Shown here: positions 11,043 through 42,809 of the stretch, piece after piece | Layout: every line of letters begins with the position of its first letter | How positions within the stretch are numbered: position 1 is the first letter of the stretch | Made by a program: the position numbers and the translations under genes | The notes under the pieces: generated by a model | The model's input: the letters and a program-made list of their open reading frames with translations, nothing else | Told to the model about the DNA's origin: nothing | Database searches by the model: none | Origin: Arthrobacter stackebrandtii | GTDB taxonomy: Bacteria > Actinomycetota > Actinomycetes > Actinomycetales > Micrococcaceae | DNA length: 64,000 nt | Direction: 5' to 3' | Assembly: GCF_017876675.1 (NCBI RefSeq) | Contig: NZ_JAGIOI010000001.1 | Span: 3,472,001 to 3,536,000 of the forward strand

Positions 11043-11101
11043 TGAAATTCTGCTGAATTAGATGAGTAAAAGATGACCTGGGCCGTTTTTGGCCTTAATC
11101 G

Positions 11102-11136
11102 CCCCTGACCTGCGGATCATATCCGCAGGTCAGGGC
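11102..11136 (-). terminator. hairpin downstream of the displaced tRNA-Arg 3' end
   Basis: An inverted repeat with 13-bp arms (CCCTGACCTGCGG ... CCGCAGGTCAGGG) lies just beyond the tRNA 3'-end remnant. A related hairpin occurs next to the intact tRNA at 42694-42725. It probably terminated tRNA-Arg transcription before the element inserted. Confidence 0.5.
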
Positions 11137-11139
11137 CAC

Positions 11140-11181
11140 TTTTTGGTGCCCCGGGCGGGAATTGAACCCACGACCAAGAGA
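11140..11181 (-). repeat. left attachment site (attL): 42-bp copy of the tRNA-Arg 3' half
   Basis: These 42 bases are identical to 42730-42771, which form the 3' part of the intact tRNA-Arg gene from the anticodon stem through CCA. An isolated tRNA 3' end with no 5' half is the usual mark of tyrosine-recombinase integration into a tRNA gene. Imperfect similarity to the right end continues leftward to about 11064. Confidence 0.85.
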
Positions 11182-22526: not shown

Positions 22527-23067
22527 GGGCCCGGACTTCCTTGGTGACGATGGGGATCCTGGCAACCTCCCGCAGCGGGTTGGCGCTGATGGCGCCGTGC
22601 CGTGTGGCGAGGCTGAGCATCCCGGACAGGATGGTCTTGCACATCTTCGCCGTCGTGGCGCCGCTTTTGGTCCGGGTCGTCTTGAGGAACCTGTCGAGGG
22701 AGTTGACGTTGGCTTCCCTGATGGTCAGTTCGCCGGTGCCGGGCAGGATGTAGGTGTCCAGGAGCTCCCGATACCTTTTGCTCGTGTTGGCGGCCCTGCC
22801 GAGGTCTTCAAACTCCGCCCACCAGATCTTTGAAAGCTCCCGCAGCTGCATCTCCGGCCTGATCTCATCTTCATTGACCGGGACCAGCAGCGTGAGCTTG
22901 TGAATGAGGGCCGCCTCGGCCTTTGGCCCGGTCGGCCCCCACGCTTCGTAGCGGCGGACGACGCCGTCGAAGGACCGGAACTTGGCGCGGGCACGCCAAA
23001 TTTTCGGCTTGAGTTGCATGCGGGTGACCTTGCCCCACATGCCCAGCGGCAGGCGTGCTCTAGGCAA
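22527..23067 (-). pseudogene. tyrosine integrase, N-terminal part (split by insertion sequence)
   Basis: This is the arm-binding and SAM-like core-binding region of the integrase (WGPTGPKAEAALIHKL; YRELLDTYILPGTGELTIRE; KMCKTILSGMLSLATRHGAI). It reads into the insertion element and stops at once. The start overlaps the end of the excisionase-like gene; TTG 23067 and ATG 23040 are both possible. With the piece at 19440-20101 it forms a complete integrase of normal length. Confidence 0.85.
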
Positions 23068-25643: not shown

Positions 25644-28600
25644 TTACAGCGAGGGGCCGACAACGGGGGCTGGTGAATGGATGCCGGCCACAGGTTCGGG
25701 CGCCCGCGTTGCAGCCTGGTTGTTGGGCCGCATGGCGGTGATGCGGGCCTCGAGCCGGGCGCGCTGGTAGGAGTGGTCCCATTCCGTCGCGCTGGGTGCT
25801 GCCCCGAGGGGCAGCGCGGGGTTGTCGATGTCCCAGCGGTCGCGGAAGCCGGCGATGTCCCGCACGAGGGATTTCCACGCCTCGTCACTGGCTTGCAGGC
25901 CGGTTTGTGCGCGCAGGGGACCCATCCATGGTTCTTCGTTGGCGAAGGCGTGGACGGCCACCGCGGCCAGCCGCTGGGTGATCCGCTGTTGAACGTCGTC
26001 GAGCAGTTCACGGAGGTCTTCCCGGTCCGTCGGCACTGACACCGGCGCCATCGTGAGTGATGATGTGGCGGGGAACCGTCGTTGGATGGCTTGCAGGCGG
26101 GAGTTCACGACGGCGGCAACGTCGCGGGCGCCGACTGTTGGCTCCAGCCCGCCGGCCAGGGCATGTTCCGCGACGGGCCGGTTGGTGGTTGCGGTGCGTC
26201 TCCAGGCGGCGACCATGGCGCCCCAGGAGGGAGACGCCTGCATCTCAGGTACAAGGGCGGGGGAGTGGGTGTTGATGAGGTGGGTGACGTCGTCGGATGC
26301 AGCGATTTGGGCCAGGTAGTCGTGCTCGGCGAGCAGGCGGGAGAGAGAGTTGGCCTGGTTGCGCTGTTCCTCGCGGACCTCGTGGGCGGTGTGCTCGGCA
26401 CCCTCAGTGGAGAGAATGCCTCCGAGGATTTCCCGCCCGTCCGGCAAAGAGGATGGGTCCACGCCGTGGTGGTCGCGGGGGTCGGGTTCACTGATGTAGG
26501 CGTGATTGCCGGCCTTCCCGCGGGTCATGGAGACGTAGAAGAGCTCCCGGGTGAGCCTGCCTTCGCTGACCAGGGTGTGGCCGGTGTCCACGGTGATGCC
26601 CTGGGAGCGGTGGGCCGTCGTGGCGTAGCCGAGTTCCACGGACTCGGCGAGATATCTGGTACCCAGGAGAATGCTTGCGCCGTTGTCCTGGCGGATCCCT
26701 GCGATGGAGCCATCCGGGTTGGGAGAGCCAAACACTGTGATGAGGGTGCCGTTGCGGATGAAGTCGCCGGTCTCATCCAGGAGGCGGCGGTCATTGCGCC
26801 GGGCCAGGACGGTGTCGCCGCTCCCCGCGTGGAGCCCGTCGCTGAGGTCCACGGTGGCCTCCGCATCTACGGCGCCTGTGCCGACGCGGTCGGCCTGGGC
26901 ACGTTCATTGAGCATGGCCACGGTGTCATTGTCCGGGGCGATCAGGATCGAAGTCTTCCCGGTGCGGATGTCGGCGTCCCAGCAGTTGTAGGCGTCATCG
27001 ACCATGGCGTCGTAGGTGCCGCTGCTGACGCGTTCATGGGCCGTGTACTCGGTGATGACATTGATGTCGCCTGTGCGCAGTTTCAGGGAGGCGCTGCGTT
27101 CCCATTCGTTGGTGAAGCGCCAGACCGTGCTGAGCCGTTCTGCGCAGCCTGTGCGGTCCAGCCAGCCCAGGACTCCGCCGGCGTCGATGGAGTCCAGCTG
27201 TGCCGGGTCGCCGACCAGCAGGAGCTTGGCCCCGGCACCCGTGGCCTGGTCCAGAAGGGCGGCGAGCTGGTAGGTGGAGACCATGGACGCCTCGTCGATG
27301 ATGACCAGCTGGTTGGGCCGGAACTGCCACTGTGCCTGGGTCGCTGTGAGGGCGCTCATGCGCTGCGCAAGGCGCTCCAATACCTTCCTCGCCTGAGTGT
27401 CCTGTCGTGGGGATTGACAGGCTGCCTGGTACCTTTCTGCGGTTTCCATGTACTGTTCTGCCCTGATGGCTGCGCCCGGTCCGGTGGATTCGTAGAGCCA
27501 CTTGCTCACGTTGTCCGTGGCCAGTCCGAGCTCATGGCCCAGGACGTCGGCCGAGGCCGCGGCGGGGGCCAGTCCCACCACGGTCCCGGCACCGAAGCAG
27601 TCTTCCCAGAGGGCCTTGACGGCGCTCATCGTGGTGGTCTTGCCCGTCCCGGCAGGGCCGACGACGGCGTCCAGCCGCTTCCCGCTGGCAAGCACAGTCT
27701 CGGCAGTCCTGCGTTGTTCGTCCTGCAAGTACTCGCCACGGGTGCTGCGGAACTCTTGCAGAGCGTCCTGGACGGTCGTGTGCTCGAGGTGTGGGCCGGC
27801 GTCGTGCGTGTGGGCGTTCATGATGGCTTCCTCGTTCGCCAGGGTGGAGACGTCGGTGAACAGGTGGGCGCTGTCCAGGTCAAAGACGCTGCGCCCGTGG
27901 AGCACCAAGTCGGGGGATGTGGTGGTGGGGATGCCGTAGCGGAACTCGTTGAGTGCGACGGACTGGGTCTCGGCGGAGGTGGCGATGGCGTCCATGAGGC
28001 GGATCCGGTCATCAGGCGTGGCGCAGCGGATTTCCAGGCACACCCGTTCTGCCTCGGCGATCAGGTTCCAGCGGTTCCAGGTGGCGCGGCGCCTGGCTAC
28101 CAGGTCCTTGACCAGCCCGGCAGTGCTTTCAATCCAGGCAGTATCCGTGTCGGCGGTGGCGATCGGGTGGGTGCGGGAGCGGTTGATGGTCGCCGCCAGC
28201 ACCGCCTCGGGGTCGAAGCCCTTGGCCTGGGCCCGGTCGCGCCACTGGCGGGTGCGGATGTTCAGGGGGACGACGTCGTGGTTCTTAGCGGTGCGAGTGG
28301 AGAGGGTTGCCTGTTGCCGGAGTTTGAGCTTGACGGCGTTGCTGGGTTCCCTCCCGTGGGTTTCGGACCAGTCGTGGATGAGCCTGTCTGCCTCGATGTC
28401 GATCAGCCGGGACCTGCTGGAGAACTCGCGGATGAGTGCATCGTCCACGCCGGAGAGTTCGAAACTGTAATTGTGGACGGCGCTGGTGGGCGTGCGGACT
28501 TCGGCCTCGGTTCCCAGATCCCGGCCGAGCTGGTCATAAAGCAGCCCGTTGTAGTGTTCGCTGGCAGCCACAGTCGCCTTGTAGAGGGTGCGTGAGTCAA

Positions 28601-29222
28601 GGGTGGTCCAGACACCGTCGCTGACGCGTTGGGCGCGGTTGGCGATGACGACGTGGGTGTGAAGCTGCGGGTCTCCGGAGCGGGACTCCCAGTGGTCGAA
28701 CGCGGCCGCGATGGCGCCGTGGACGCCGACGTGGGCGACGCCGCCGTGTCCGGCGCGGGTGTGGATGGCGGAGGTCTCCAGCCAGGCGAGGGTGGCTTCC
28801 AGTGCCGCGTGGTGGGCTGCCATGACCTTGTCCTTGTACTCGTCGCTTCCCAGGGCCCAGAGCACGGAGACGGACTTGGGCACGCTGAAGGTCAGGTCGA
28901 AGCCGGCCACGGCAGCCCGGCGCACGGATTGGCCGTTGGCGCCGGTGACGGTGGAGGCCTGATTGGGTGTGCGGCCCAGGGATGTTCCCGTGGTGGGGTG
29001 TTCACCTCGCTCGAAGAGGGCTTTTGCGGCAGCGTCGGTGACGGTGTCGTGGGGAGTCATGCCGATGCCGGGCAGTCCTGCGCCGAGCCATTGCCTGGGC
29101 GGGTTGCTGGCGGCGGTGTAGTAACTGGTGAGGTCTCGGGTTTCGACGTCGGCATGGCTGGTGGTCTTCAGCAGGTATGAGACGCCGGCCTCGGTGGAGA
29201 GGCGGGCTATGGAGACGGTCAT
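25644..29222 (-). CDS. MobF-family conjugative relaxase/helicase
   Basis: The 1192-residue TrwC/TraA-like protein has an N-terminal relaxase domain with the Tyr pair in LTSYYTA and the His triad region LHTHVVIANRA near 187. A helicase domain follows, with Walker A GPAGTGKTTT near 521, IIDEASMV, LLVGDPAQLDSID and the late motif GYATTAHRSQGITVD. It nicks DNA at oriT, stays covalently attached and unwinds the strand for transfer. It overlaps the upstream zinc-ribbon gene by four bases. The gene is complete. An oriT should lie nearby, perhaps in 29770-29795 or beyond the insertion sequence, but I cannot identify it. Confidence 0.93.
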   Translation of the reverse strand: MTVSIARLSTEAGVSYLLKTTSHADVETRDLTSYYTAASNPPRQWLGAGLPGIGMTPHDTVTDAAAKALFERGEHPTTGTSLGRTPNQASTVTGANGQSVRRAAVAGFDLTFSVPKSVSVLWALGSDEYKDKVMAAHHAALEATLAWLETSAIHTRAGHGGVAHVGVHGAIAAAFDHWESRSGDPQLHTHVVIANRAQRVSDGVWTTLDSRTLYKATVAASEHYNGLLYDQLGRDLGTEAEVRTPTSAVHNYSFELSGVDDALIREFSSRSRLIDIEADRLIHDWSETHGREPSNAVKLKLRQQATLSTRTAKNHDVVPLNIRTRQWRDRAQAKGFDPEAVLAATINRSRTHPIATADTDTAWIESTAGLVKDLVARRRATWNRWNLIAEAERVCLEIRCATPDDRIRLMDAIATSAETQSVALNEFRYGIPTTTSPDLVLHGRSVFDLDSAHLFTDVSTLANEEAIMNAHTHDAGPHLEHTTVQDALQEFRSTRGEYLQDEQRRTAETVLASGKRLDAVVGPAGTGKTTTMSAVKALWEDCFGAGTVVGLAPAAASADVLGHELGLATDNVSKWLYESTGPGAAIRAEQYMETAERYQAACQSPRQDTQARKVLERLAQRMSALTATQAQWQFRPNQLVIIDEASMVSTYQLAALLDQATGAGAKLLLVGDPAQLDSIDAGGVLGWLDRTGCAERLSTVWRFTNEWERSASLKLRTGDINVITEYTAHERVSSGTYDAMVDDAYNCWDADIRTGKTSILIAPDNDTVAMLNERAQADRVGTGAVDAEATVDLSDGLHAGSGDTVLARRNDRRLLDETGDFIRNGTLITVFGSPNPDGSIAGIRQDNGASILLGTRYLAESVELGYATTAHRSQGITVDTGHTLVSEGRLTRELFYVSMTRGKAGNHAYISEPDPRDHHGVDPSSLPDGREILGGILSTEGAEHTAHEVREEQRNQANSLSRLLAEHDYLAQIAASDDVTHLINTHSPALVPEMQASPSWGAMVAAWRRTATTNRPVAEHALAGGLEPTVGARDVAAVVNSRLQAIQRRFPATSSLTMAPVSVPTDREDLRELLDDVQQRITQRLAAVAVHAFANEEPWMGPLRAQTGLQASDEAWKSLVRDIAGFRDRWDIDNPALPLGAAPSATEWDHSYQRARLEARITAMRPNNQAATRAPEPVAGIHSPAPVVGPSL

Positions 29223-29767
29223 GACCTGCCCATTTCCGTGTTCCAGCCGCGGCGTGCAAAGATCGCCGCCGACGTCCTATCGAGCCGCGTGTTCGCGGCC
29301 CGATTCAAAACCAAGACCCGGGCAGCGAGTTCCTGCAGGTCCTTGACGGCCTGCTGTTCGCTGAGCTCACGCTGCTTATTCTCGTACCGCAAGTGCCGCA
29401 TCGAACGTTGCAGTGCGTCGGCCTCCGACTGTGCTCGGGACGCTGCCTGGGCGCGTTGGTTGAGCTTTTCGTAGGCGGTGGCCAGCTTGTCTTCAAAGGA
29501 CCGTGTCACGGTGGCAAGCTTGCGTCGCTCCGTGAGTTGGAGGTTTCGGATGGTCGCCTCATAGAGTGCGGTGAGCGCCGCCAACGACTCCTGAGTGTTG
29601 GCCTTGGACTGGCCAGCTTGGCCGGTCATCCGCAGCTCTTCATCCTGGAGGCTCCGCCGGTACTTTCGTTGCCGCTGGCGGTGGGCACACGCCGGCCGGC
29701 AGAAGAGCTGCCGGGGGCTGGCGGGTGTGAACGGGGTGTTGCATTCGGGGCATGTTCGCGTAGTCAT
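29219..29767 (-). CDS. zinc-ribbon plus coiled-coil protein, relaxase partner
   Basis: The 182-residue protein starts MTTRTCPECNTPFTPASP, with a second Cys pair in LFCRPACAHRQRQRKYRR, together a zinc ribbon followed by a basic stretch. A long coiled coil follows to about residue 150. ATG 29767 is preferred; the frame to 29809 runs into the insertion sequence. It overlaps the relaxase gene by four bases (ATGA), suggesting a joint complex, possibly an oriT-binding accessory protein. This role is inferred from position and the Zn/basic region. Confidence 0.65.
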   Translation of the reverse strand: MTTRTCPECNTPFTPASPRQLFCRPACAHRQRQRKYRRSLQDEELRMTGQAGQSKANTQESLAALTALYEATIRNLQLTERRKLATVTRSFEDKLATAYEKLNQRAQAASRAQSEADALQRSMRHLRYENKQRELSEQQAVKDLQELAARVLVLNRAANTRLDRTSAAIFARRGWNTEMGRS

Positions 29768-29794
29768 ACCTATCCATGGTGATTCAGCCGGTTT

Positions 29795-32211
29795 CAGGGC
29801 TCCGGTCATGGTCGGGGACAGGCATTTGAAGTTCGTTGATTTTCAGGGGTTTTGAGTGGCTGAAGGGCTGTTAATTTTGCCCGCGATACGATAAAATAGA
29901 GTTAGTGTTTTGTCGTCAATCGAGGGGTGAAATGATGGTTTTTATGACTGCTCAACTTCCCCTGCCTGTGACGATGGATCCTGTTGCCGTGTCGGTGGGC
30001 CTGGCGGTGTCCCTGGTGGAGAACGATCGTGGCGGGGAAGTCTATATTCGCGGGCAACTGTGTGACGTGTGGGACGCCGAAGACGCTGCTGCACGTCGCT
30101 GGGCGGCAGTGAAATTGGTGCGTTTGGGTGCGGCTTCGCAGGAGCAGGTCGCGGCAGCTTTCGGAGTTTCCTCGGTGGCGGTGTGGAAATGGGTCCAGCG
30201 GGCGGCCGTCGGTGGCATTGCTGCGTTGGTGTCGGAAAAGAAGGGCCCGAAGAAGGCTTCCCGACTTAGTGACACTGTCATCGCCCGGATCGTGGAACTG
30301 CGCAGCACTGGCCTGTCCCAGCAGGCTGTCGGCGACATGGTTGGCGTCTCGGAATTCAGTGTCCGCCGCGCCCTGAAAATCGCTGCCGAACAAACTGCCA
30401 CAGAAACAGCAGCCCTCGAGCCAGAACCCCTGGAACCAGCACCAGCACCACAGCCTGAGCTGCCGCTCTTTCCAGCCCCGGCACCCCGCACTGCTGAGCG
30501 TGCCGCCGCCGGCCTGCTCGAGGCTGCAGCGCCTTTGTTTGCCCCGGCCGCCCATGTTCGCTATGCCGGACTGTTTCTGGCGTTCCCCGCACTGGAAACC
30601 ACCGGACTACTCGCCTGCGCTAGGCAAGTGTACGGGGCGTTGCCGAATGGTTTCTACGGCCTGGAAACGATACTGATTGATAGTGTGCTGCGGGCACTAG
30701 CTGGGGAAGCCCGGGCCGAGGGCGCGACCCGCTTTGACCCGGAGGAACTTGGGCGGGTGTTGGGGTTGGATCGGGCCCCGGAAGTAAAAACCATCCGCCG
30801 CCGGATCAGCCAACTTGCCGAAACGGGCAAAGCCGGGGAACTGATCGCTGCCCTCGCCAAACACCACTTGTCAGGTACCGGTTCCGGTGGTGAGGACCTG
30901 GCGGCGATTCTTTATGTTGATGGGCATGTGCGCGCCTACCAGGGCACGAAGAAGATCGGGAAGATCTACTCCACACGGTTGAAGTTCCCGGTTCCGGCGA
31001 CCGAGGAAACCTGGGTCACCGACGCGCACGGTGCCCCTGTCTTTGTCGTCATGGCCGCGCCCGGTGCGTCCCTGGCCGCCGAACTCCGCGACCTCCTGCC
31101 GGAACTGCGCACCACGGTCGGGGACGAGCGGCGGGTGCTGGTCGGCTTCGACCGCGGAGGATGGTCCCCCGCCTTGTTCAAGCACATGGATGCGGCTGGT
31201 TTTGATGTGCTGACTTGGCGCAAAGGCACCACCAAAGACATCGAAGAAAAGTTGTTCGCCCAGGTGTCCTACACCGACGAACACGGTGAAGAGAAGACTT
31301 GGTCGGTTGCTGACACGGTCGTTGACCTGCCCCTGAACACCACGAAGAAGACCGGTGAAGTCTTCAGTATCCGCCAGATTAGCCGGATCGTGGGCACCAC
31401 CGGTGGTGGCACGAGGCAAATTCATATCCTCACCACTGACCGGACCATGAGCGCTGGGGAGGTCGTGTATCGGATGGGGAATCGGTGGCGGCAGGAAAAC
31501 CAGTTCCGCTACGCGCGCATGCACTTCGCCCTCGACTCACACGACTCCTACACCAGCACCGATGACAACGAGGACCGTTTGGTGCCGGAACCGGCGAAGG
31601 CCCGCGCCTACCAAAAAGTTGTCGCCGCCCGGCGCCACCACGCAGAAGCAGCAGCCATAGCTGATCTGAACCTGTTGGCATTGAAAACCCCGACCGAGGG
31701 CACCGATGAAATCACGGTGACCAGTGCCATGCACAACCACGTCATGGCACCAGTATGGGAAGCAGAAAGTGCTTTGGTTGCTGCTGAGAATGTACATCAA
31801 AGCATTCCGGCGAAGATCCGCCTCGGTGACCTGAACCCGGGCCAACAAGTCCTGGATATCGAGGTGAAACTGATCCACACCGGGATCCGGATGGCCGCCT
31901 ACAACACGGCGATGACGATCGCCAGAGAGATCCGTACCAACACTGGCTACCGGCGCGCGAACCAGGAAGCCCACGCCCTCATGCGTCAGATGTTCAATCA
32001 GCCCGGTGACGTGAATACCACCGACCCCGGCCATCTCACCATCACTCTGGACCCGCTACCGACCAAGGCCAAAACTGCGGCCGCCGCTCAGCTGTGCGAG
32101 CACCTCACCGCCACCGAAACCCGCTACCCCGGCACCAATCTCATCCTCAAATACGCCATCAAAACCAAGGCCTCGGCTCTCATCAAATAAATCGTGATGT
32201 CAGGAGCCCTG
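29795..32211. mobile_element. 2.4-kb insertion sequence, second copy
   Basis: The ends CAGGGCTCCGGTCATGGTCG (left) and CAGGGCTCCTGACATCACGA (right, read inward) match those of the copy at 20102. An exact five-base target duplication GGTTT flanks it (29790-29794 and 32212-32216). It landed 28 bases upstream of the zinc-ribbon gene, probably separating that operon from its promoter. Confidence 0.88.
29932..32190 (+). CDS. large DDE transposase, second copy
   Basis: This is about 752 residues and the same architecture as the protein at 20242: helix-turn-helix (QEQVAAAFGVSSVAVWKWVQ), a Glu/Pro-rich linker, YVDGHVRAY, GFDRGGWSP and RWRQENQFRYARM. The central and C-terminal parts are nearly identical to the first copy, while the first ~190 residues differ considerably. 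So these are two related elements and not a recent duplication. It is intact. Confidence 0.85.
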   Translation: MMVFMTAQLPLPVTMDPVAVSVGLAVSLVENDRGGEVYIRGQLCDVWDAEDAAARRWAAVKLVRLGAASQEQVAAAFGVSSVAVWKWVQRAAVGGIAALVSEKKGPKKASRLSDTVIARIVELRSTGLSQQAVGDMVGVSEFSVRRALKIAAEQTATETAALEPEPLEPAPAPQPELPLFPAPAPRTAERAAAGLLEAAAPLFAPAAHVRYAGLFLAFPALETTGLLACARQVYGALPNGFYGLETILIDSVLRALAGEARAEGATRFDPEELGRVLGLDRAPEVKTIRRRISQLAETGKAGELIAALAKHHLSGTGSGGEDLAAILYVDGHVRAYQGTKKIGKIYSTRLKFPVPATEETWVTDAHGAPVFVVMAAPGASLAAELRDLLPELRTTVGDERRVLVGFDRGGWSPALFKHMDAAGFDVLTWRKGTTKDIEEKLFAQVSYTDEHGEEKTWSVADTVVDLPLNTTKKTGEVFSIRQISRIVGTTGGGTRQIHILTTDRTMSAGEVVYRMGNRWRQENQFRYARMHFALDSHDSYTSTDDNEDRLVPEPAKARAYQKVVAARRHHAEAAAIADLNLLALKTPTEGTDEITVTSAMHNHVMAPVWEAESALVAAENVHQSIPAKIRLGDLNPGQQVLDIEVKLIHTGIRMAAYNTAMTIAREIRTNTGYRRANQEAHALMRQMFNQPGDVNTTDPGHLTITLDPLPTKAKTAAAAQLCEHLTATETRYPGTNLILKYAIKTKASALIK

Positions 32212-32405
32212 GGTTTACACCATGACCAAACGTCACATTGGCGTCACGCGGCCGTGACGGGCACCGCTTCGGTGCCAAAGGTGTGAAGGGCTTTTTGGTA
32301 GCGGAAACTACGCGGTAGTTGGGGGTACTTTTGCCATGGGAATTGGTCGTGGTGGGATCTGGCTGCGGTGGTGGGTTGGGGAGCTATCGGTGGGTTGGTG
32401 GGGGC

Positions 32406-32562
32406 GCAGGGGAGTGCCGCATGAGGTTTTCATGCGGCACTGGATCTCCAAGCTGGAGCGTGATTAGTGGATCGCTTGCTTGAGTCGCTCGATTTTGGTG
32501 GGGTTGAATCCTGACCATTGGTGGTGATCGCTGACCACGACGACGGGGGCCTGGGAGGTACG
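32406..32562 (-). repeat. truncated duplicate of the nrdH 3' end
   Basis: The minus strand reads QAPVVVVSDHHQWSGFNP to a stop at 32464, then a hairpin, closely matching the end of the nrdH-like gene and its downstream region at 35065-35220. The similarity stops within ten bases of the OLD gene stop codon. With the copy at 35065 it brackets the OLD gene. Confidence 0.8.
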
Positions 32563-32570
32563 AAATCAGC

Positions 32571-34688
32571 TCAAGTAGTTGCGGGAACACTGTCCTGATA
32601 GATATTTGAGAAGATCCCTCTCAGCTCCTTCGTGACGTTCTCCGCATCATCACCGTGCACGTTCGTGAAGAGATCCAGGGATGTCGTATCGGCACAGAAT
32701 CGGATGGCAGTAGAGACTTTGTCGCTGCTCGCGGAGGTTCCACAGTAGGCCTCGAGATCACCACGTCGCAGTACGTACGTGCCCTCGCATGCGAGGGAAG
32801 ATACGACCTCATCGATCGCTTCTTTGATAGCGTCTGATGGCGGGTTCTTCAACAGTTCAAGCTTTGCGTCGCCGTGGCCGGTTTCAAACAGTTCGGTCAA
32901 GACTTCCTCGATACCCTGAGCAGAAGATTCTGTCTTATCGTCCCGCCATGTGGAGAGGTGTTGCTGAGCTACGATCCAGAGTTCCCGCGCAGATCGACTC
33001 TTGGCAATCGCCTTTGACTTCTTCCCGTTCGGCTCGCTGGGTCCCGTGATGCACTCTGAGACCAATTCCATAAGTTTCGCATGAGCGTCTTTGATCATCT
33101 GAGTAGATGTGAGTTGTGAGAAGCCGTTCGATAGTGCGTCGAGGTCCGTAATGACATGGATGGGGATGTCAAAGTAGCCAAAGAAGCGGCGGTATCGGGT
33201 GATATTCCCTTTGCCTTCAATTTTCACGAACATGATGTTTCGTTCCACGTCGTCCCACTTATCCGACAACAGCTTTGCTAGGTGCGGATACACAAAAGTA
33301 TCGCTGTCCCCTTCCACGAGAACGACCCTCTGCGCAAAGAAGGCAGCTTCGTTGTTCTCGTGCCTGACTACTTGATATTCATCTCTAAGGCTCATCTCGA
33401 GATCGACTGGCTGCGCTGTAACACCTTGAGCTGTCTTATACAGTCGTGTGAACCCCTTCGTCCCAGGTTGAAAGAAACCGGGCGAGTGGGTTGTCACCAG
33501 TACCTGGTGGTCTTGAGAGAACGACATCAGCGCGTTCATGAGCTGTCGTTGCGCGCGCGGATGGAGATAAAGCTCCGGCTCTTCGAATAGCAGCAGGTAC
33601 GAGCGCTTCGATTTCGGCCGCTCTTCCGTCTCACCTGATTCAGGAACTTCGCTTAGCCCAGTGTCCTTCATATTCGTGTAAGCCCGCAGCAGGGCGAATA
33701 GGACAGTGCGCTTGAGGCCGTCCCCCTTGGTGGCGACACTTCCCACATGTCCATCGTCAACTAAGAGATCCGCGCTTGCGAGAAGCATCGGTAGCGTCGG
33801 CGCCGGGATATCCATGCGAATCTTCACGCCAGGAAAGCTCAACGTAACGTAGTCCTCGATAATAGACTCGATGCGTTTAACCGCCGGGAGGCGTTTATCT
33901 GATGGATCACCGTGCTCGTCGAGTTGTCGGCTTAGCTTCTGGTGGACCTTCTTAAACTCTTTGTCGATGTCGTCGAACTGTCCCTGGACTTCGTCGAAGA
34001 GCATTCCTAGCAGCTTTGCGAAGGCAGAGGTGCCGGTGGATTTGGCCTCGACAGATGCATCTTTAACGGCTTCGATGTAAATTACTGAGGGAAAAAGTGG
34101 TTTTACAGCCGCTGCGATACCTGTTGGGAACGGTGCCGGCTGTTCCTCACATTTATCGTTAGGCACATCACTGATCAGTTTCTGCCAAGCATTGACAACG
34201 TCAGCCTTGGAGGGCTTGCTGGACAAGAGTGGTTCCAGCTCCGGCTTGAGCTCAATCGCGGCGTTTCGAAGCCCAACTCCAGTTGTCCCCTTGGTGGCCT
34301 CGTTTAGGACTTCGATGTCCCAGCCTGAGTCGATGGGTACCAGCTTGAGGTATTTGGACTCTGGCCTACCATTCGGTTCCTGCGTACGAACAATCTTGAG
34401 CGTCCCATCCGTGATGATTCCCGCAACTTTCGCGCGGTGCGTTTCGCCGACTCGTTGCAGATCGGTGTCGGTAATGCCAGTGAGATGCAGAGTTACTGTG
34501 ACCGGCAAGCTCTTCTCTTTGAAGTCGCTGGCTTCAATTTTTCTGTCCTCGAGAGCGAACTGAACCGCATGAAGTATCGACGATTTGCCCGCATTGTTCT
34601 CTCCAATCAAGCATCCGAGCTGCGTTAGAGGCACCTCTGTCGATACGTGCGCTCGAAAATTTTCAACTCTTACGTAAGTTACTTTCAT
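32571..34688 (-). CDS. OLD-family ATP-dependent endonuclease
   Basis: The 705-residue protein has an ABC/SMC-type ATPase followed by a Toprim nuclease domain. Walker A is GENNAGKS at 29-36. The signature and Walker B region includes LLLFEEPELYLHPRAQRQLM near 365-385, with LVTTHSP following. The Toprim motifs are LVEGDSD near 457 and VITDLDAL near 512. ATG 34688 has AAGGAA 6 bases upstream. No UvrD-like helicase (GajB) or other partner follows, so this is a stand-alone OLD protein. Relatives such as P2 Old and GajA act in phage exclusion by cutting DNA. It lies between two copies of the nrdH 3' end. Confidence 0.85.
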   Translation of the reverse strand: MKVTYVRVENFRAHVSTEVPLTQLGCLIGENNAGKSSILHAVQFALEDRKIEASDFKEKSLPVTVTLHLTGITDTDLQRVGETHRAKVAGIITDGTLKIVRTQEPNGRPESKYLKLVPIDSGWDIEVLNEATKGTTGVGLRNAAIELKPELEPLLSSKPSKADVVNAWQKLISDVPNDKCEEQPAPFPTGIAAAVKPLFPSVIYIEAVKDASVEAKSTGTSAFAKLLGMLFDEVQGQFDDIDKEFKKVHQKLSRQLDEHGDPSDKRLPAVKRIESIIEDYVTLSFPGVKIRMDIPAPTLPMLLASADLLVDDGHVGSVATKGDGLKRTVLFALLRAYTNMKDTGLSEVPESGETEERPKSKRSYLLLFEEPELYLHPRAQRQLMNALMSFSQDHQVLVTTHSPGFFQPGTKGFTRLYKTAQGVTAQPVDLEMSLRDEYQVVRHENNEAAFFAQRVVLVEGDSDTFVYPHLAKLLSDKWDDVERNIMFVKIEGKGNITRYRRFFGYFDIPIHVITDLDALSNGFSQLTSTQMIKDAHAKLMELVSECITGPSEPNGKKSKAIAKSRSARELWIVAQQHLSTWRDDKTESSAQGIEEVLTELFETGHGDAKLELLKNPPSDAIKEAIDEVVSSLACEGTYVLRRGDLEAYCGTSASSDKVSTAIRFCADTTSLDLFTNVHGDDAENVTKELRGIFSNIYQDSVPATT

Positions 34689-35064
34689 TGGTGTTCCTTA
34701 TTTTGAGGTCAGGGGCGATCGTCAGCTATTGCTCTTGCCTGGGCGAACAGAACCGTCTGAGGTCGGTGAAAATGCCCATGGCAGTGCAAGGGAAACCAAG
34801 ACTTGACTTACCGAAGCAGGCACGGCTCGATTCAAGAACTCGGTCACGTGTCAAAGTCTTGCACGAGGGTACGACATCACTATCCAACTTATAACGATGA
34901 GGATTTCTAGGCCGTGGTCATCATGTATACCGGGGACTCGCAATATGGATGAACTTGAATGCAGCATGCGTGAAGGATTTTTGGTTGGGGCAGCGGCATC
35001 GTCGGTTGGCGGTGAATTTGCTGAGGGACGAGTCTTGCTGGGATCCGGCTGCAATGGTGGTGGA
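34689..35064. other. intergenic region before the OLD gene, no gene seen
   Basis: These 376 bases contain the promoter side of the OLD gene. No protein-coding frame of note is seen. Confidence 0.4.
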
Positions 35065-35220
35065 GCAGGGGAGTGCCGCATGAGGTTTCATGCGGCACTG
35101 GATCTCCTGCTGGAGGGTGATTATTGGATCGCGAGCTTGAGTCGCTCGATTTCGGTGGGGTTGAATCCTGACCAGTGGTGGTGGTCGTTCACGACGACGA
35201 TCGGGGCTTGTGAGTAGCCG
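35065..35220 (-). repeat. nrdH 3' end and downstream hairpin (second copy of the repeat)
   Basis: The match to 32406-32562 covers the last ~32 codons of nrdH and the following stem-loop with 11-bp arms (GTGCCGCATGA ... TCATGCGGCAC at 35072-35096). The hairpin lacks a clear T run but may end the message or protect its 3' end. Confidence 0.75.
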
Positions 35221-35357
35221 AGGTCCTGGACGTACTCCAGGGCAGCCGCATTGATGGTCAGGTCGACGACGTCGTAGGGGATGCCAGCATGGTCCAGGCT
35301 GCGGCAGGTGAACTTGCATTGCTGGCAGCCTGGCTTGCTGTAGACCGTGACGTTCAT
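35121..35357 (-). CDS. nrdH: NrdH-like glutaredoxin
   Basis: The 78-residue thioredoxin-fold redoxin has the active site CQQC at 11-14 in VYSKPGCQQCKFT, the cis-Pro region QAPIVVV, and the NrdH-type end WSGFNPTEIERL. It reduces class Ib ribonucleotide reductase or other thiol enzymes. GAGGTGAGGG precedes ATG 35357. No nrdI, nrdE or nrdF is nearby. It follows a DUF4192 gene on the same strand with about 50 bases between, so the two may be co-expressed. Confidence 0.88.
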   Translation of the reverse strand: MNVTVYSKPGCQQCKFTCRSLDHAGIPYDVVDLTINAAALEYVQDLGYSQAPIVVVNDHHHWSGFNPTEIERLKLAIQ

Positions 35358-35407
35358 TTCCCTCACCTCACTCTCCGATTCTTCTGGTGATGAATCGCCG
35401 GTGCTTG

Positions 35408-36430
35408 TTAGTGCTGGTTCCGATATGCGGTGTTCTTGTGTTGTGCCCAGCCGGAGACGACGCCGGCACCGAGCATCTGGTCCAGCAGCCTGGCCAGGTG
35501 GTAGTCCGGGGCGAACGTCAGGGCGACGTGCATGTAGTTCGCAGCGGCCGTTCCCCGGCCTTTCCACCAGCAGATGTGTCCGAGCATCGTCAACGGCGCT
35601 GCCGCGTGGGCCGGAGATGCGATGCTGAGCAGCTGCCGCAGTAGCTTTTCGGAGCTGTCGATCCGGTCCCATTGCGGGGCTTCGTCCGTGGTGCCAAAGA
35701 GTGTGGCGGCCATGGGTTCGTTGATGCCGGGCATGTCGGCCAGGATCTGGTCCCTGAGCCCGACGTGCTGCAGCCCGGCCAGGACCTCGGCCAGCTGGTC
35801 GTGGGTGGGGTCGGCGCCGTGGTCGATGAGTTCCATCCAGAGCCGGTATGCCGCGTCAAGGCACTTGGACGGGTTGGTGGCCATGTTCTGTAGGGCTGCT
35901 TCGATGGCTTCGTGGTCGACGGCGGTGAACAACTCGGGGATGGTAGGTGCATCGTTTGGTGCGACGGCGCTGCCTTGGTAGACCAGCTCGGCGTTCAGGA
36001 GGCAGGATTCAATGGCGGCCAGCGGGGTTTCCTTGCCACATGAGGCTGGGTTGGTGCCGTCGTAGGTGGCGAAGGATTCGGGGCCGACGATCCACACGTC
36101 GTGGACGAGCAGCCCAGCAGCGGTGAGGTGTCGCTTGAGTCCTTGAACCATGGCGGCGAAGGGCTTTTGGTGTCCCTGGTCCCAGGGTTGGTGGGTGAAC
36201 AGGGCGATGAGGACGGCGGTGGCGTCGTGGTCGAAGCCGATAGCGTGGGCGACGCGCTCGGCGTAGCTCTGGCCGACGTCGTCAGTGCTGGGCAGGTTGA
36301 CGCGGAGGGTGGGGCCCAGTGTCCTGCCGTCGAGGGCGAGGCAGACGAGGCTTTCCTGGGGCCAGTAGCCGAGGCTGTGGCCCATGTAGCTGATGGTGTC
36401 GGCCGGGCTGCTGATTCTGATCAGTTTCAT
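35408..36430 (-). CDS. DUF4192-domain protein (element copy)
   Basis: The 340-residue protein has SYMGHSLGYWPQESLVCLAL and VRLWMELIDHG-type helical segments, then DQILADMPGINEPMAATLFG and a TPR-like end (AAANYMHVALTFAPDYHLAR). ATG 36430 is chosen because GAGGAG lies 9 bases upstream. It is a complete paralogue of the frameshifted chromosomal copy at 5841-7069. The function of the family is unknown. Its position directly before nrdH may hint at a redox or DNA-precursor link, which is weak inference. Confidence 0.8.
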   Translation of the reverse strand: MKLIRISSPADTISYMGHSLGYWPQESLVCLALDGRTLGPTLRVNLPSTDDVGQSYAERVAHAIGFDHDATAVLIALFTHQPWDQGHQKPFAAMVQGLKRHLTAAGLLVHDVWIVGPESFATYDGTNPASCGKETPLAAIESCLLNAELVYQGSAVAPNDAPTIPELFTAVDHEAIEAALQNMATNPSKCLDAAYRLWMELIDHGADPTHDQLAEVLAGLQHVGLRDQILADMPGINEPMAATLFGTTDEAPQWDRIDSSEKLLRQLLSIASPAHAAAPLTMLGHICWWKGRGTAAANYMHVALTFAPDYHLARLLDQMLGAGVVSGWAQHKNTAYRNQH

Positions 36431-37056
36431 TGTCCTGCTCCTCTTCGGTGATCGGTGGCTGCTTGTTCGCGGCCGCCTGCTCTGTTGGTGCCTTCTGGTA
36501 AGAGGAATCACCGCTGGGTTTTAGGGGCCGGAGGGCAACTTGGGGTACCGGGCACGGGGCAAAAATTGTTTCGAGGAAATAAGCGACGCAGGAGCGCCGA
36601 GGAAGAATTTTTGGAGGAGTGACCGGCGCGCAGCGCCCTGGTTGCGTGGAGGACCCGCCCAGCGATGATGGGGTACCAGAAGGCACAACGTGGTTTGGCA
36701 TGTGCACATAGAGATCCATCGCCCGGTGTGATTGTTCCGACTGACCGGTCGTTGCGCCGTTGGGCTACTACCGTGGATTGCCGTTCTCGCCTTCATACCT
36801 GTTCATGGTGCTGGCGAGCCTCTACGAGGCGACCGGGCGTCACTACTCAATCGTGAGGATCAGCAATCTTAGACGAAGGCGTGTCAAACTCGGTTTTTCG
36901 GAGCTAGCGCTTCTTTGTGGCAATACAGACTGGTAGCTTCAGGGTCTGCGGTGGCCGTTGTCGGAGCGACTACCTTACGTAGAGCCGACAATGAGCGTTG
37001 GAGCGAGTGGATTGGCCGATGGAGGCGCCGCTCTGTGAACGTGAAACAATGGGAAA
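36431..37056. other. no convincing gene
   Basis: These 626 bases lie between divergent genes. A 91-codon minus-strand frame begins at 36796, next to a copy of the 13-base motif shared with 29769. Its residues look non-globular and run into the DUF4192 leader. I leave it unannotated. Confidence 0.4.
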
Positions 37057-37509
37057 ATGTGGACAGATCAAAATGGCATCATGGGCGTTGGCTACGAGGG
37101 AACAGATGTGGAGGCGTTTCTGCAAGGACTTGTGACGTGGGACGTGAAGGTGTTGGTCGATGTTCGACTGAACGCCATTTCGCGTAAAAAGGGATTCTCT
37201 AAGCGCGCCTTGACTGAAAATCTGAGCGGCGTAGGCATAGAGTATCTACACCTCCCAGCGCTGGGTAATCCTAAAGAGAACAGAGAGGGGTTTGCGTCAC
37301 CAGAAGCTTCGGAGTCAAACCCTTCACATGCTAGGTACAAGGAATTACTGCGTTCTGAGCCGGCCGAAGATGCTCTGGCGCGATTGACTGAACTCGCTCT
37401 GCAGAAGCGCATTGTTGTTCTGTGCTTTGAGGCCGCGGAGAGGTGCTGTCATCGCCGGTTCATCTTGGAAGCGGTCAAACTTCGAATTGATGAATTGGCT
37501 ATGGCTTAG
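37057..37509 (+). CDS. DUF488-family protein
   Basis: The 150-residue protein has the DUF488 pattern: GVGYEGTDVEAFLQGL, VLVDVRLNAISRKKGFSKR, GIEYLHLPALGNP and a C-terminal CFEAAERCCHRRFILE with conserved Cys and His-Arg. ATG 37057 and ATG 37081 are both possible; the family usually begins close to the GYEG motif. It converges on, and overlaps by four bases, the minus-strand gene at 37506. DUF488 proteins are uncharacterised, with proposed nucleic-acid-related roles. Confidence 0.78.
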   Translation: MWTDQNGIMGVGYEGTDVEAFLQGLVTWDVKVLVDVRLNAISRKKGFSKRALTENLSGVGIEYLHLPALGNPKENREGFASPEASESNPSHARYKELLRSEPAEDALARLTELALQKRIVVLCFEAAERCCHRRFILEAVKLRIDELAMA

Positions 37510-38342
37510 AACAGCGTGTCAGAGGGCTTGGAGTGTTGTGGAGGCCAAAATACTCCAATAACCATGAAGCTACCAGGATTCTGGTGTTGGTTTCCAATGA
37601 AAAAGTGGACGTCCCGATCACTGCCGCACATGTCGTCATAGAACTTGCGCTTGAGTTGGTCTGCGACACTCCCTGACTTACCGTCACGCCACTTGAGTCC
37701 TGCCGCTCCGACTTCCCAGTCGATCAGTGATTGGGAGTGGCCACTGCATGCGCGGTCCTGGCACCGATACTCGTACTGAAGACGGTATGGGGCCGCGCGC
37801 AAAGCATCCTTTTCATTCTGGAAAAGATCAGGCGCTGCGGCCATTGCGGCGGCAGCGGCAATTGTCCGATCAAATGCTGGGTTGGTAGTCACGATCACAC
37901 CTGAGACGTCTGCCGGCTTGATGAGGGCGAGAGATCTAGAGTTCTGTCCTACCTTGGCTGCCCTTTCCCTAATCTCACATGTCGTAAATTCGCCCGCTAA
38001 GTCATGAACTAGTTCCCACCGATCATGCCACTTCCTTGATGTATCAATAGTGGATCCCAACTTAAGAGAACCGAGGTCGGGCTGCCAGCTCTCTGGCCGC
38101 CTGTCTGTAGTTCCTTTTTTCGCCCGAAGTGTCACATGTTGGTATTTTTTAAACTGCATATGGGGTTCCAGATCACGGAAACCAACTGGGAAGAGCCGGA
38201 CGAGCTCATTCTTTTGTGTATCGGTTCGCACGCCGGCGACGCAGACAGACTCACCATATTTATTGCTAATAGCCGGGTAGGCCTTTACGGTGACGACCAT
38301 TTCAATAGTCTGCCATCCTCCAGCAAAGTCGGTTTGTGTCAT
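37506..38342 (-). CDS. zinc-motif protein paired with DUF488
   Basis: The 278-residue protein has a conserved-looking N-terminal half (VVTVKAYPAISNKYGESVC; ELVRLFPVGFRDLE; FKKYQHVTL) and a Cys-rich motif YRCQDRACSGHSQSLIDWEV that could bind zinc. It ends with a FVIG-type beta segment (HFFIGNQHQNPGSFMVIGVF). Proteins of this type often neighbour DUF488 genes. Here the two are convergent. ATG 38342 follows AGGAAG; ATG 38363 is an alternative. It lies 68 bases downstream of the restriction enzyme on the same strand. The function is unknown; nucleic-acid binding is a guess. Confidence 0.6.
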   Translation of the reverse strand: MTQTDFAGGWQTIEMVVTVKAYPAISNKYGESVCVAGVRTDTQKNELVRLFPVGFRDLEPHMQFKKYQHVTLRAKKGTTDRRPESWQPDLGSLKLGSTIDTSRKWHDRWELVHDLAGEFTTCEIRERAAKVGQNSRSLALIKPADVSGVIVTTNPAFDRTIAAAAAMAAAPDLFQNEKDALRAAPYRLQYEYRCQDRACSGHSQSLIDWEVGAAGLKWRDGKSGSVADQLKRKFYDDMCGSDRDVHFFIGNQHQNPGSFMVIGVFWPPQHSKPSDTLF

Positions 38343-38409
38343 TATCTTCCTTTTGGTTCCCATGTGATTCTTGAAAGGTTAATGAAAGCATAGATTAGCG
38401 TCGCCTGGT

Positions 38410-41340
38410 CTACCTTGGTTTGGCAATTTCTAACGTTGTCGGCATGTTCACCCGATGGGAACTGATAATTGCGCGTTTCTCGCCAGGGGCCTGTGCCAAT
38501 TCTGGCTGTTCAGCGAGTTCTAGATTCAGCGCCAGCAGCTGGGTCAATATTTCGTCCCCTGATGAGAAGTGATAGGCCTTCAATACTGCTTTGTCTAAGG
38601 TCGTATGAAGGGTTTGTAGCTGGTTCCTTCCCGGAACGCTTAGATCGTCGTACTGCGAGGCTAGAGACTCACCATTAGCCAATGCTTCACTGCGCAGGTC
38701 AAGTACCTCCGCCATGGCCTGGGAGATGGCTGCCACATCAGCAGGCGTGGGTGACGGGGGAAAAGGAAAGCAATCCCATACGGTTGTTGATGTGTAGCGA
38801 GGGTCGCCCTTCATACTCGAGCACCTAGCTTCAATCCATTTTCTGTGGATCGATGACGACAGGATGCCCAGCGAGTAGTCATCGTCCAAAGCAAATACAG
38901 TCAGAGCATCGCTGGGGCGGATTCGTGAGTCAACAAATTCGAATACTGCGGGTCGATTGACGGTAGTCACTCGGGATGTGGCTATATATCGTTCAATTCC
39001 CGCGAGGGCAACAAGCATTTCTCGCCTTCGATAGCCCAGCTGCCACCATGTCTGGAGGAAACCTGCATGGTGATTGTTGACTTTTGCCTGTGGATTGCTC
39101 AGGAGAGCCGATTCGTTCTTCTCGGCTTGCTCGTCAGCCTTCGCCTGGCGAATACCCAGCACCATCTCTTTCAGGTGGGCATAGGCAGCAGGGTACTTTG
39201 TTCGGGCAGTTCGCAGATCAGATTCAGGAATGTCAATAACCCAACGATCAACTTCAGTTTTGTTCAGCATCTCCCGCCCGCCAAGAAATGGGTGTACTAC
39301 GTCTCCACTACCGTCGTTTTTATCTAGCAACTCCTGCATCTGCAGCCGATTCAACACAAAGCCCTTTTCAACTTTCGTTACGCCTGGAGTTTGCCCTTGG
39401 AAGCACCTTTGGGGTAGTTGGTTGAATTTCAGGGATTTAGCTGTGCGTACATCAACGTTTGGAGAAAGGGATGTTGGTATTTTTGCCAGAACCAATCGAC
39501 CTTCACCGTTATTGACCCAAAGAATTTTCTCCGCAGGAGCGGGGTGTGAATCATCAGTCTTCATCCAGTTGATGATTGAAACAAAGACGTTAGCTTCGCC
39601 TGACCACGGCTTCGAGGAAACAGCGTTGGTAATAACGCCGCCGTTATCTTCGATGTAATCTAGGGAAACCAATCTGGATTCATTCTGGCGAATCGAGTTA
39701 GTAGCAACTAACCCCGCACGAGCTCCCGGCGCGATATGGTCGTGGGCTAAAGGAAACCAGTATGAGACAAAGTCGCTGACGCCGCCAATTTGTGGGAACT
39801 CGGCGGCAAGACGCTGTGTGTATCCGACCCCGAGTTCTTCGACCATCTTTCGGCGGCCTAGAAACGGCGGATTTCCAATCACAACATCCACCCGTGGCCA
39901 TTTACTAAAGAGTGAGTCGGCCTGAGTGATACTCGCATCTAGATTGTCCAAGGGAAGGACAGTTGCGGTATCGTTCAATTCGTCCGCCGCGAGTTTTTTT
40001 GCGAGCATCATCGTAATTTTGGCCATTTCAACCGCAAACCCATTGATATCCATTCCAAAGAAATGGTCAGTGGTCACGTAGCTAAACGAGGCTTGGGCCG
40101 CCGTATTTGAGTTCCGGCGCTTGTCCGCTATTAGCGCGTGCACTTCTGCTTCGAGGCGTCTCATTTCTCTGTAAGCCACGTAGAGAAAGTTTCCCGATCC
40201 ACAAGCGGGATCCAAAACGCGGAAGTTCATCATCTCAGGGAGTAATTTCTCCAACGCGACAATGCCGCCTGCTCCACGTTCCTGGGCTTCTTCAATTCGC
40301 TGTCGCCATGGATTAACTATGGTGGGCAGGACGACCTGAGCGATATCAGCTTGGCTCGTATAGTGGGCGCCGGCTGCATGGCGTTCGCCCTTGTCCATGG
40401 ATTGCTCGAAAATCGTGCCGAAGATTTCGGGGCGCACAAACGCCCAGTTTGTTGAGACAGCCTTCCACAGCATTAAGAGCTCCGGTTGAGAAATTTCGAG
40501 GGGCACAATGTTGGCGAAAAGACCGCCGTTGAAGTAGGGCACTTCTTTAAAACGTCCGCCTGCTGTAAGCCCTGTTGTATTCATTTCCCTGAAGAGTCCA
40601 AAGAGCAGGTCGTAAGCTCTTGCTGAAGGATGCGGATCCGCTAGGCTGTCCTTGACAGCAGCCCGGAACATGTGGGTCGGGAGAAGATGGACATCCTCAG
40701 CAAACATCGCCATGACACACTGCAGTACGAACCGCTGAGCCACCGATCTTTCGATTCCTCGAGACACCATGGATCGGAATACTGACGAGACGTCTGCCGC
40801 GGCCTCGCGGGTGACAGCGACTAGGTCATTCTCGAAGACAGGGTCAGTCGCTTCCGGGAGTAGAAAGGTGAGGGCCTCCCACCTGTCTGCCAAATTGTCT
40901 AATGACACGCGATCGACGGGCTCGTCCAACTGAGAGTCAAAGTCGTAGATCCAGAATTCATCGAAGTTGCACAGCACCACATAGCGGGGGCGATCGGGGA
41001 CTGCTGCTATCCAGTAGTCAAATGCCTGACGATAGTGGCGTTTGAGATCGGTGTTGGCTTTTTTCATTTCGATGAGGCATCGCTTTTTCCAAAGCAGGTC
41101 AGCGAATCCTGTGGTCTTCTTACCGCCGGTCGACCGCCTCAGTCGAGCCTCAAGCGTTGCGCCTGCTTGATTAATTCCATCATGACCGAAAGCTTGGAAT
41201 AGGCGCTCCAAGAACACCTGCGCTTCGCCCTTCTCATCACCAGAAAGGTACGTCTTTCGATAGACGGCGAGATCCGCAAGCGCAGATCGGATCCTTGCGC
41301 TTTCTGGATTCACTCGGGTTTGATCAGTGCGTGTGTCTGT
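38410..41340 (-). CDS. type IIL (MmeI-like) restriction-modification enzyme
   Basis: This is about 976 residues in one chain. The N-terminal nuclease region has Asp and Glu-x-Lys in FADLLWKKRCLIEMKKAN near 73-90. A helical spacer follows. The N6-adenine methyltransferase core has DPACGSGNFLYVAY near 374 and the catalytic NPPF near 488, and a target-recognition and C-terminal helical region follows. Size and motif order fit MmeI-type enzymes that both cut and protect, with methylation of one strand. ATG 41340 is preferred (GGGGG upstream); ATG 41373 is possible. No separate methylase or specificity gene is present. The recognition site cannot be predicted. Confidence 0.82.
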   Translation of the reverse strand, partial: TDTRTDQTRVNPESARIRSALADLAVYRKTYLSGDEKGEAQVFLERLFQAFGHDGINQAGATLEARLRRSTGGKKTTGFADLLWKKRCLIEMKKANTDLKRHYRQAFDYWIAAVPDRPRYVVLCNFDEFWIYDFDSQLDEPVDRVSLDNLADRWEALTFLLPEATDPVFENDLVAVTREAAADVSSVFRSMVSRGIERSVAQRFVLQCVMAMFAEDVHLLPTHMFRAAVKDSLADPHPSARAYDLLFGLFREMNTTGLTAGGRFKEVPYFNGGLFANIVPLEISQPELLMLWKAVSTNWAFVRPEIFGTIFEQSMDKGERHAAGAHYTSQADIAQVVLPTIVNPWRQRIEEAQERGAGGIVALEKLLPEMMNFRVLDPACGSGNFLYVAYREMRRLEAEVHALIADKRRNSNTAAQASFSYVTTDHFFGMDINGFAVEMAKITMMLAKKLAADELNDTATVLPLDNLDASITQADSLFSKWPRVDVVIGNPPFLGRRKMVEELGVGYTQRLAAEFPQIGGVSDFVSYWFPLAHDHIAPGARAGLVATNSIRQNESRLVSLDYIEDNGGVITNAVSSKPWSGEANVFVSIINWMKTDDSHPAPAEKILWVNNGEGRLVLAKIPTSLSPNVDVRTAKSLKFNQLPQRCFQGQTPGVTKVEKGFVLNRLQMQELLDKNDGSGDVVHPFLGGREMLNKTEVDRWVIDIPESDLRTARTKYPAAYAHLKEMVLGIRQAKADEQAEKNESALLSNPQAKVNNHHAGFLQTWWQLGYRRREMLVALAGIERYIATSRVTTVNRPAVFEFVDSRIRPSDALTVFALDDDYSLGILSSSIHRKWIEARCSSMKGDPRYTSTTVWDCFPFPPSPTPADVAAISQAMAEVLDLRSEALANGESLASQYDDLSVPGRNQLQTLHTTLDKAVLKAYHFSSGDEILTQLLALNLELAEQPELAQAPGEKRAIISSHRVNMPTTLEIAKPR

Positions 41341-41373
41341 CATAGCTGCCCCCACTAGTGTTCGAATACTCAT

Positions 41374-42574: not shown

Positions 42575-42667
42575 CAAAAACGTGAGCAGAAATCGAGCCT
42601 ATTTCCGCCCAAAATCAAGCCAAAAACGTGACCAACTTTTCGTTCAAAAACGTGAGTAAAACGTGAC
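42575..42667. repeat. iterated CAAAAACGTGA motif next to the right attachment site
   Basis: Three exact copies of CAAAAACGTGA start at 42575, 42621 and 42645, and a shortened copy (AAAACGTGA) at 42658. They lie within 160 bases of the attR core. This spacing and position fit arm-type binding sites for an integrase or excisionase, or a mobilisation-related iteron. Confidence 0.6.
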
Positions 42668-42729
42668 TTGGGCTGTTTTTGGCCTTAAGCGGCTCTGACC
42701 TGCGGAACATAACCGCAGGTCAGAGGCGT

Positions 42730-42771
42730 TTTTTGGTGCCCCGGGCGGGAATTGAACCCACGACCAAGAGA
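42730..42771 (-). repeat. right attachment site (attR), inside tRNA-Arg
   Basis: This is identical over 42 bases to 11140-11181. The repeat covers the tRNA from the 3' side of the anticodon stem to CCA plus four bases, so integration restored a complete tRNA here. Confidence 0.85.
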
Positions 42772-42809
42772 TTAGAAGGCTCCTGCTCTATCCGCTGAGC
42801 TACCGAGGC
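42734..42809 (-). tRNA. tRNA-Arg (anticodon UCU)
   Basis: The 76-base gene includes an encoded CCA. The acceptor arms GCCTCGG and CCGGGGC pair with one G-U. The D arm is GCTC/GAGC, the T loop is GTTCAAT, and the anticodon loop is CTTCTAA. The anticodon stem is imperfect near the loop (C31-U39). It is the target of the integrated element. Confidence 0.9.

Follow-up and report, generated by a model that had tools for sequence, protein, structure and literature searches.

The window, a 64,000-nt stretch of the Arthrobacter stackebrandtii genome, contains an element of ~32 kb bounded by tRNA-Arg repeats, within which an OLD-family nuclease gene sits between two copies of an nrdH-like gene (Table 1). 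The element may be integrative and conjugative: it has the tRNA-Arg end repeats, a relaxase and a best integrase match in two pieces (22528-23067 and 19479-20111). A transposase gene (20224-22488) lies between these pieces, and the integrase may be broken. On the far side of DUF4192 (37057-41373), the element also carries an MmeI-like type IIG restriction enzyme, adjoined by the candidate defence pair PDC-M19A/B (one with DUF488).

Table 1 Features of the OLD locus and its element, in window positions
Feature	Position	Strand	Basis or remark
119-bp repeat of tRNA-Arg 3' end, probable left element end	11063..11181		89% identical to 42653-42771
TrwC/MobF-type relaxase	25644..29222	-	Pfam TrwC 1.1e-77
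orf199, conserved small gene before relaxase	29219..29809	-	tblastn in relatives; without Pfam match
Transposase gene (Transposase_29), between left repeat and orf199	29905..32190	+	Pfam 7.7e-50
Left repeat copy: truncated nrdH 3' end from ~codon 48, hairpin (32414-32440), spacer	32267..32557	-	alignments; low edge fixed by query used
OLD-family gene, 705 aa, AAA ATPase + TOPRIM	32571..34688	-	PADLOC Old 4.5e-90
Right repeat copy: nrdH 3' end, hairpin (35073-35098), spacer	34954..35214	-	outer edge approximate
Intact nrdH-like gene, 78 aa	35121..35357	-	Pfam Glutaredoxin 1.9e-13
Codons 52-53 of nrdH	35199..35204	-	codon count; unoccupied in window, Tn554-like site in G002, G003, G209
DUF4192 gene, nrdH partner in module	35408..36511	-	Pfam 2.3e-36
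119-bp repeat overlapping tRNA-Arg (42734-42809), probable right element end	42653..42771		repeat match

The OLD protein combines an N-terminal ATPase (Pfam AAA_15, 7.6e-33) with a C-terminal OLD-like_TOPRIM domain (3.2e-17), and no NCBIfam model reaches its cutoff against it. Directly downstream, there is no UvrD-like helicase gene; the nrdH tail follows, and then the opposite-strand transposase gene. By its domains and the missing helicase gene, OLD is predicted to be a class 1 OLD family nuclease, resembling in both respects the class 1 enzymes in the accessible text of PMC7049728. The protein appears to be an ordinary member of this known family without unusual traits; its presumed role is phage defence by a nuclease that needs no partner gene. 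At 52.9%, the GC content of its gene is below that of the relaxase (67.0%) and of the whole window (61.8%), as would be expected of foreign cargo. Outside its own genome, five relatives were found at 1e-40 among 395 family genomes, and none of the four loci read from these five has an nrdH within 1.5 kb. Eight relatives lie on plasmids, and within the genus, besides OLD itself, there are only partial matches of 25-32% identity.

Upstream of OLD, the intact nrdH-like ORF scores 85.4 bits against NCBIfam TIGR02194, just below the cutoff of 85.75, and is followed by a hairpin with a perfect 11-bp stem. Beyond OLD lies a second nrdH 3' end with its own hairpin (32391-32557, minus strand), separated from the OLD stop codon by 13 nt. 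The two copies share a 106-nt block of 87% identity, and a local alignment of 32346-32557 with 35001-35214 scores 125, whereas none of 50 single-base shuffles exceeded 26. The preliminary description had placed an intact nrdH upstream of OLD, as we find, and a copy of its 3' end and hairpin near the OLD stop, which is likewise present, although not "within ten bases". It had described the copy as the gene end plus its hairpin; the repeat in fact extends beyond the hairpin and takes in part of the spacer. Compared with a second copy elsewhere in the same genome, the right-copy spacer is similar as far as ~34954 (68% over 109 nt, E 6.5e-10); when the spacers of the two window copies are compared directly, the similarity is marginal, with a score of 66 against a maximum of 65 in 100 shuffles. 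We did not accept similarity of the right copy past ~34954, where an alignment to 34718 scored 105 (best of 100 shuffles 68) and BLAST ended after ~107 nt. A weak nrdH match (residues 23-78) across the OLD end was taken as overextension. Of the two copies, the left one adjoins the sequence that in relatives lies ahead of orf199 and the relaxase; in the window, the transposase gene lies between this copy and orf199.

To place this arrangement, we compared it with related genomes. A DNA match to the nrdH region occurs in 17 of 23 genus genomes, some of them weak. Among the stronger matches and in three additional genomes of the family (G116, G132 and G238), we counted loci where nrdH or an nrdH tail lies ahead of the orf199-relaxase pair, which gave 19 loci in 17 genomes, related rather than independent. 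Matches weaker than ~1e-11 were not taken in, with the exception of one in G002, and five other module loci with orf199-relaxase out of reach were excluded (the additional copy in the same genome, the first G003 locus, G001, G116 and G009 contig 42). The interval between nrdH and the relaxase operon is short (228-269 nt) at 7 of the 19 loci, which we regard as empty sites; these include G011, whose nrdH is fused to DUF4192 by deletion. At the remaining 12 it is occupied, spanning 1603-4161 nt in eight relatives and 5315 nt in the window, transposase included. In G002, G014 contig 13 and G019, also occupied, the cargo lies directly against the nrdH tail; for G014 contig 13 and G019, the part of the upstream sequence that was read contains no nrdH 5' half. 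The same gene order in all relatives, without empty sites, had been named as contrary to an insertion, and the seven short loci show that this is not the case.

The cargo at this hotspot is only partly defence. OLD occupies it in the window, a HEPN-RES gene (without PADLOC match) in G008, SRA-HNH with NucS-like/PDC-S11 in G015 contig 83, and a type III R-M-like cluster in G019. Elsewhere it consists of a phosphorylase-like gene (G017), a gene for an FAD-binding protein (G015 contig 6), sugar-metabolism-like genes judged by eye (G014 contig 13), a Tn554-like transposon (G002) or, at four loci, a DNA polymerase III alpha-like gene (second G003 locus, G006, G009 contig 28 and G022). This last gene encodes ~1076 aa (L112, 10216-13446) and is 89-96% identical among relatives (G003, L052, L055 and L057). 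The search for empty or otherwise loaded nrdH sites, proposed with the preliminary description, thus found both, whereas an intact nrdH accompanied by a second tail occurs at only 2 of the 12 occupied loci, the window and G008, where HEPN-RES lies between them. In both, the intact nrdH is on the far side of the cargo; G003 has an intact nrdH beyond its first module. The DUF4192-nrdH modules of G003 stand in tandem and enclose cargo, and G019 has two DUF4192 genes.

We then examined the kinship of the two nrdH copies. The tail of the right copy is 94.6% identical to that of G015 contig 6 and likewise to that of a second DUF4192-nrdH module in the same genome, whereas the left tail is closest to G001 (89.7%) and the two window tails are 87.1% identical to each other. 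In a tail tree of 148 columns, in which one of 22 inner branches is well supported and 17 are open, the left copy pairs with G001 (97/85) inside a weakly supported group that includes the right copy. The two window copies are thus not sisters, each being nearer to a copy of another genome. These affinities bear on the possibility that nrdH was duplicated in tandem on the spot and that most of one copy was then lost. G003 does have tandem modules; nevertheless, because each window copy has a nearer relative in another genome than in its window partner, we consider this origin very improbable.

The second own module (C1:1015652), which adjoins an integrase gene, is 87.6% identical to that of the window over 1.7 kb. 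Relative to it, the intact nrdH is 86.9% identical in its 5' part and 92.4% in its 3' part, and both halves have the same nearest relative, G015 contig 6. The DUF4192 gene has yet other nearest relatives, so the module is a mosaic. At L004 (7960-9884) and L111 (10150-12072), the nrdH spacer leads to a small excisionase-like ORF (by eye) and an integrase that replace orf199-relaxase, so modules seem to be exchanged at the nrdH spacer.

In two relatives, nrdH is split at codon 53, by a 5.5-kb insert in G002 and a 25-kb insert in G003. Both inserts hold genes for two tyrosine recombinases, named tnpA (short) and tnpB (long) in this analysis, as well as a small third gene; Pfam identifies Phage_integrase in two of the ORFs and DUF6262 in the third. 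We call these elements Tn554-like on the strength of gene order and of the description in the accessible text of PMC3414803, rather than direct comparison with Tn554 proteins; the Tn554-named NCBIfam models gave no match to the transposon proteins. The long recombinase of G003 reads as two pieces, and the G209 contigs hold just part of the array. The motif GTTATCTGA is present at all seven transposon ends read, and the transposon end adds codons V and I and an in-frame stop in each of the three split nrdH genes with a readable 5' half. The G002 and G003 elements are oppositely oriented and therefore represent separate insertions. Two further copies, one in G002 and one in G209, occupy the same codon in divergent nrdH genes.

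Among elements whose short recombinase is at least 61% identical, all four readable cases (L040 and L140 in G002, L041-L042 in G003 and L142 in G209) lie at ~codon 53 of nrdH, in both orientations; a fifth, on G209 contig 136 (77%), runs to the contig edge. Codon ~53 of nrdH is thus a fixed target of Tn554-like elements in G002, G003 and G209. Relatives at most 48% identical lack nrdH at all six loci and at the three plasmids opened of 47 records. The short recombinase occurs at 1e-60 in 9 of 395 family genomes; among 376 order genomes none was found at 1e-80, a draw made without the known carriers and hence uninformative.

The truncated nrdH copies on the relaxase side begin at this codon or up to ~50 bp from it. 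In the query numbering used for the tails, where codon 52 starts at 162 and codon 53 at 165, they start at 152 beside OLD, 163 in G002, 165 in G003 and 171 in G008, which puts the break 13 bp from codon 53 on the OLD side and 6 bp on the RES side (G008). The other tails start at 180 in G019 (15 bp), 195 in G014 (30 bp) and ~115 in G011 (~50 bp), the first two being diverged and imprecise; in G014, a tnpC-like fragment abuts the nrdH tail. For breaks placed uniformly along nrdH, the chance that those of OLD and RES both fall within 13 bp is 0.012, a test framed after seeing the data that takes these two tails and excludes the looser ones (G019, G014 and G011). The OLD-side copy also keeps ~10 nt upstream of codon 52, which would not be left behind if the known transposon had simply split the gene. 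Beside OLD (32001-35400), we found no exact GTTATCTGA motif, no convincing near match and no recombinase remnant, and the window's ORF list contains no recombinase between the two repeats. Judging by these positions, OLD may mark an old site-specific break in nrdH.

We interpret OLD as a passenger at the joint of two element lineages, with nrdH broken at or beside the transposon site, and assign this reading a probability of about one half. OLD would be carried along in the hotspot between nrdH and the relaxase, inside an integrated element of conjugative type. The relaxase-side nrdH would have been broken near codons 48-53, at or beside the Tn554-like target and perhaps by a recombinase, its tail remaining joined to the native spacer. 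The intact nrdH would be part of a further DUF4192-nrdH module, diverged and derived from another element lineage, and recombination between elements would have brought in this module, restoring a whole nrdH with OLD at the joint. The different nearest relatives of the two window copies point to such a joint, and the simplest account of the locus is that two lineages meet in a cargo hotspot where OLD marks the seam. The closeness of the OLD and G008 breaks to codon 53 suggests that a site-specific break came first. The short and occupied loci, the tandem modules of G003, the codon-53 insertions, the G014 fragment and the GC content of OLD also favour a break followed by a joint; counting against it are the missing transposon end and recombinase remnant, the ~10 nt kept, the post hoc nature of the chance estimate and the weak tree.

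The joint could also have formed without any site-specific step in nrdH, OLD lying where illegitimate or short-homology recombination fused the two lineages. The differing affinities of the copies, the similarity reaching into the spacer, the composite modules of G003 and G019 and the missing transposon end all fit this course; it leaves the proximity of the OLD-side and RES-side breaks to the transposon's target codon unexplained, and we regard it as the less probable route. An insertion of OLD itself is unlikely. Here a recombinase acting in trans would have inserted a small OLD cassette, the incoming 3' end restoring nrdH and displacing the native end to 32391-32557. This mobile defence cassette, as the preliminary description had it, accords with the arrangement and the empty sites, with the left copy adjoining native sequence, with similarity that starts ~10 nt ahead of codon 52, which a shared recombination core could explain, and with the like layout of G008 around other cargo. 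Against it stand the missing recombinase between the repeats, the similarity past the gene end, the different nearest relatives of the two copies, the missing transposon end beside OLD, and the lack of nrdH near the OLD relatives read (0/4). Nor is there a switch of relative at the supposed crossover, notwithstanding the rise in identity to the own module. The idea that nrdH, not a tRNA, serves as the insertion site is borne out for the Tn554-like transposon (4/4) and not for an OLD cassette.

Beyond the break-and-joint reading, codon 53 of nrdH might be a general docking site in actinobacterial conjugative elements, used by Tn554-like transposons and, via the same or a related recombinase, by OLD, RES and restriction cargo, with a second nrdH module, acquired by recombination, restoring the gene. 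We consider this generalization doubtful; if it were true, the element would pay no price for gathering defence cargo.

Hotspots of integrative and conjugative elements hold variable, partly defence cargo between conserved backbone genes, and have empty sites. The nrdH hotspot shares these properties; unlike such hotspots in general, it has a backbone gene that is repeatedly truncated at its edge. It offers a concrete case of defence genes accumulating in conjugative elements, where one backbone gene has been broken repeatedly and recurs intact next door.

Actinobacterial Tn554-related transposons on chromosomes and plasmids comprise genes for two tyrosine recombinases, a short and a long one, together with a third, small gene; possible attB sites are discussed, and the accessible text names no target for the actinobacterial elements (PMC3414803). 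The G002 and G003 elements share this gene set, and here the insertion site is known, at ~codon 53 of nrdH in both orientations, so that a target gene is now given for a group of these transposons. In contrast to the elements in that text, the OLD unit has no transposon genes. Tn552-II / Tn553, as presented in the accessible part of PMC12486829, is a Tn554-like element carrying a copy resembling its target gene. The window is similar in its broken target gene, its similar second gene nearby and a possible replacement; that second copy lies inside the transposon in Tn552-II / Tn553, whereas here it lies in the DUF4192-nrdH module, with no transposon beside OLD. Our search, which mostly left subscription papers outside its reach, found no literature linking nrdH to Tn554 or to integration sites. 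DUF4192 occurs on Arthrobacter plasmids, according to the accessible text of PMC10494377. Elsewhere on the window element, a gene without PADLOC match (16894-19359) encodes an 821-aa protein with weak NB-ARC/AAA matches (STAND-like).
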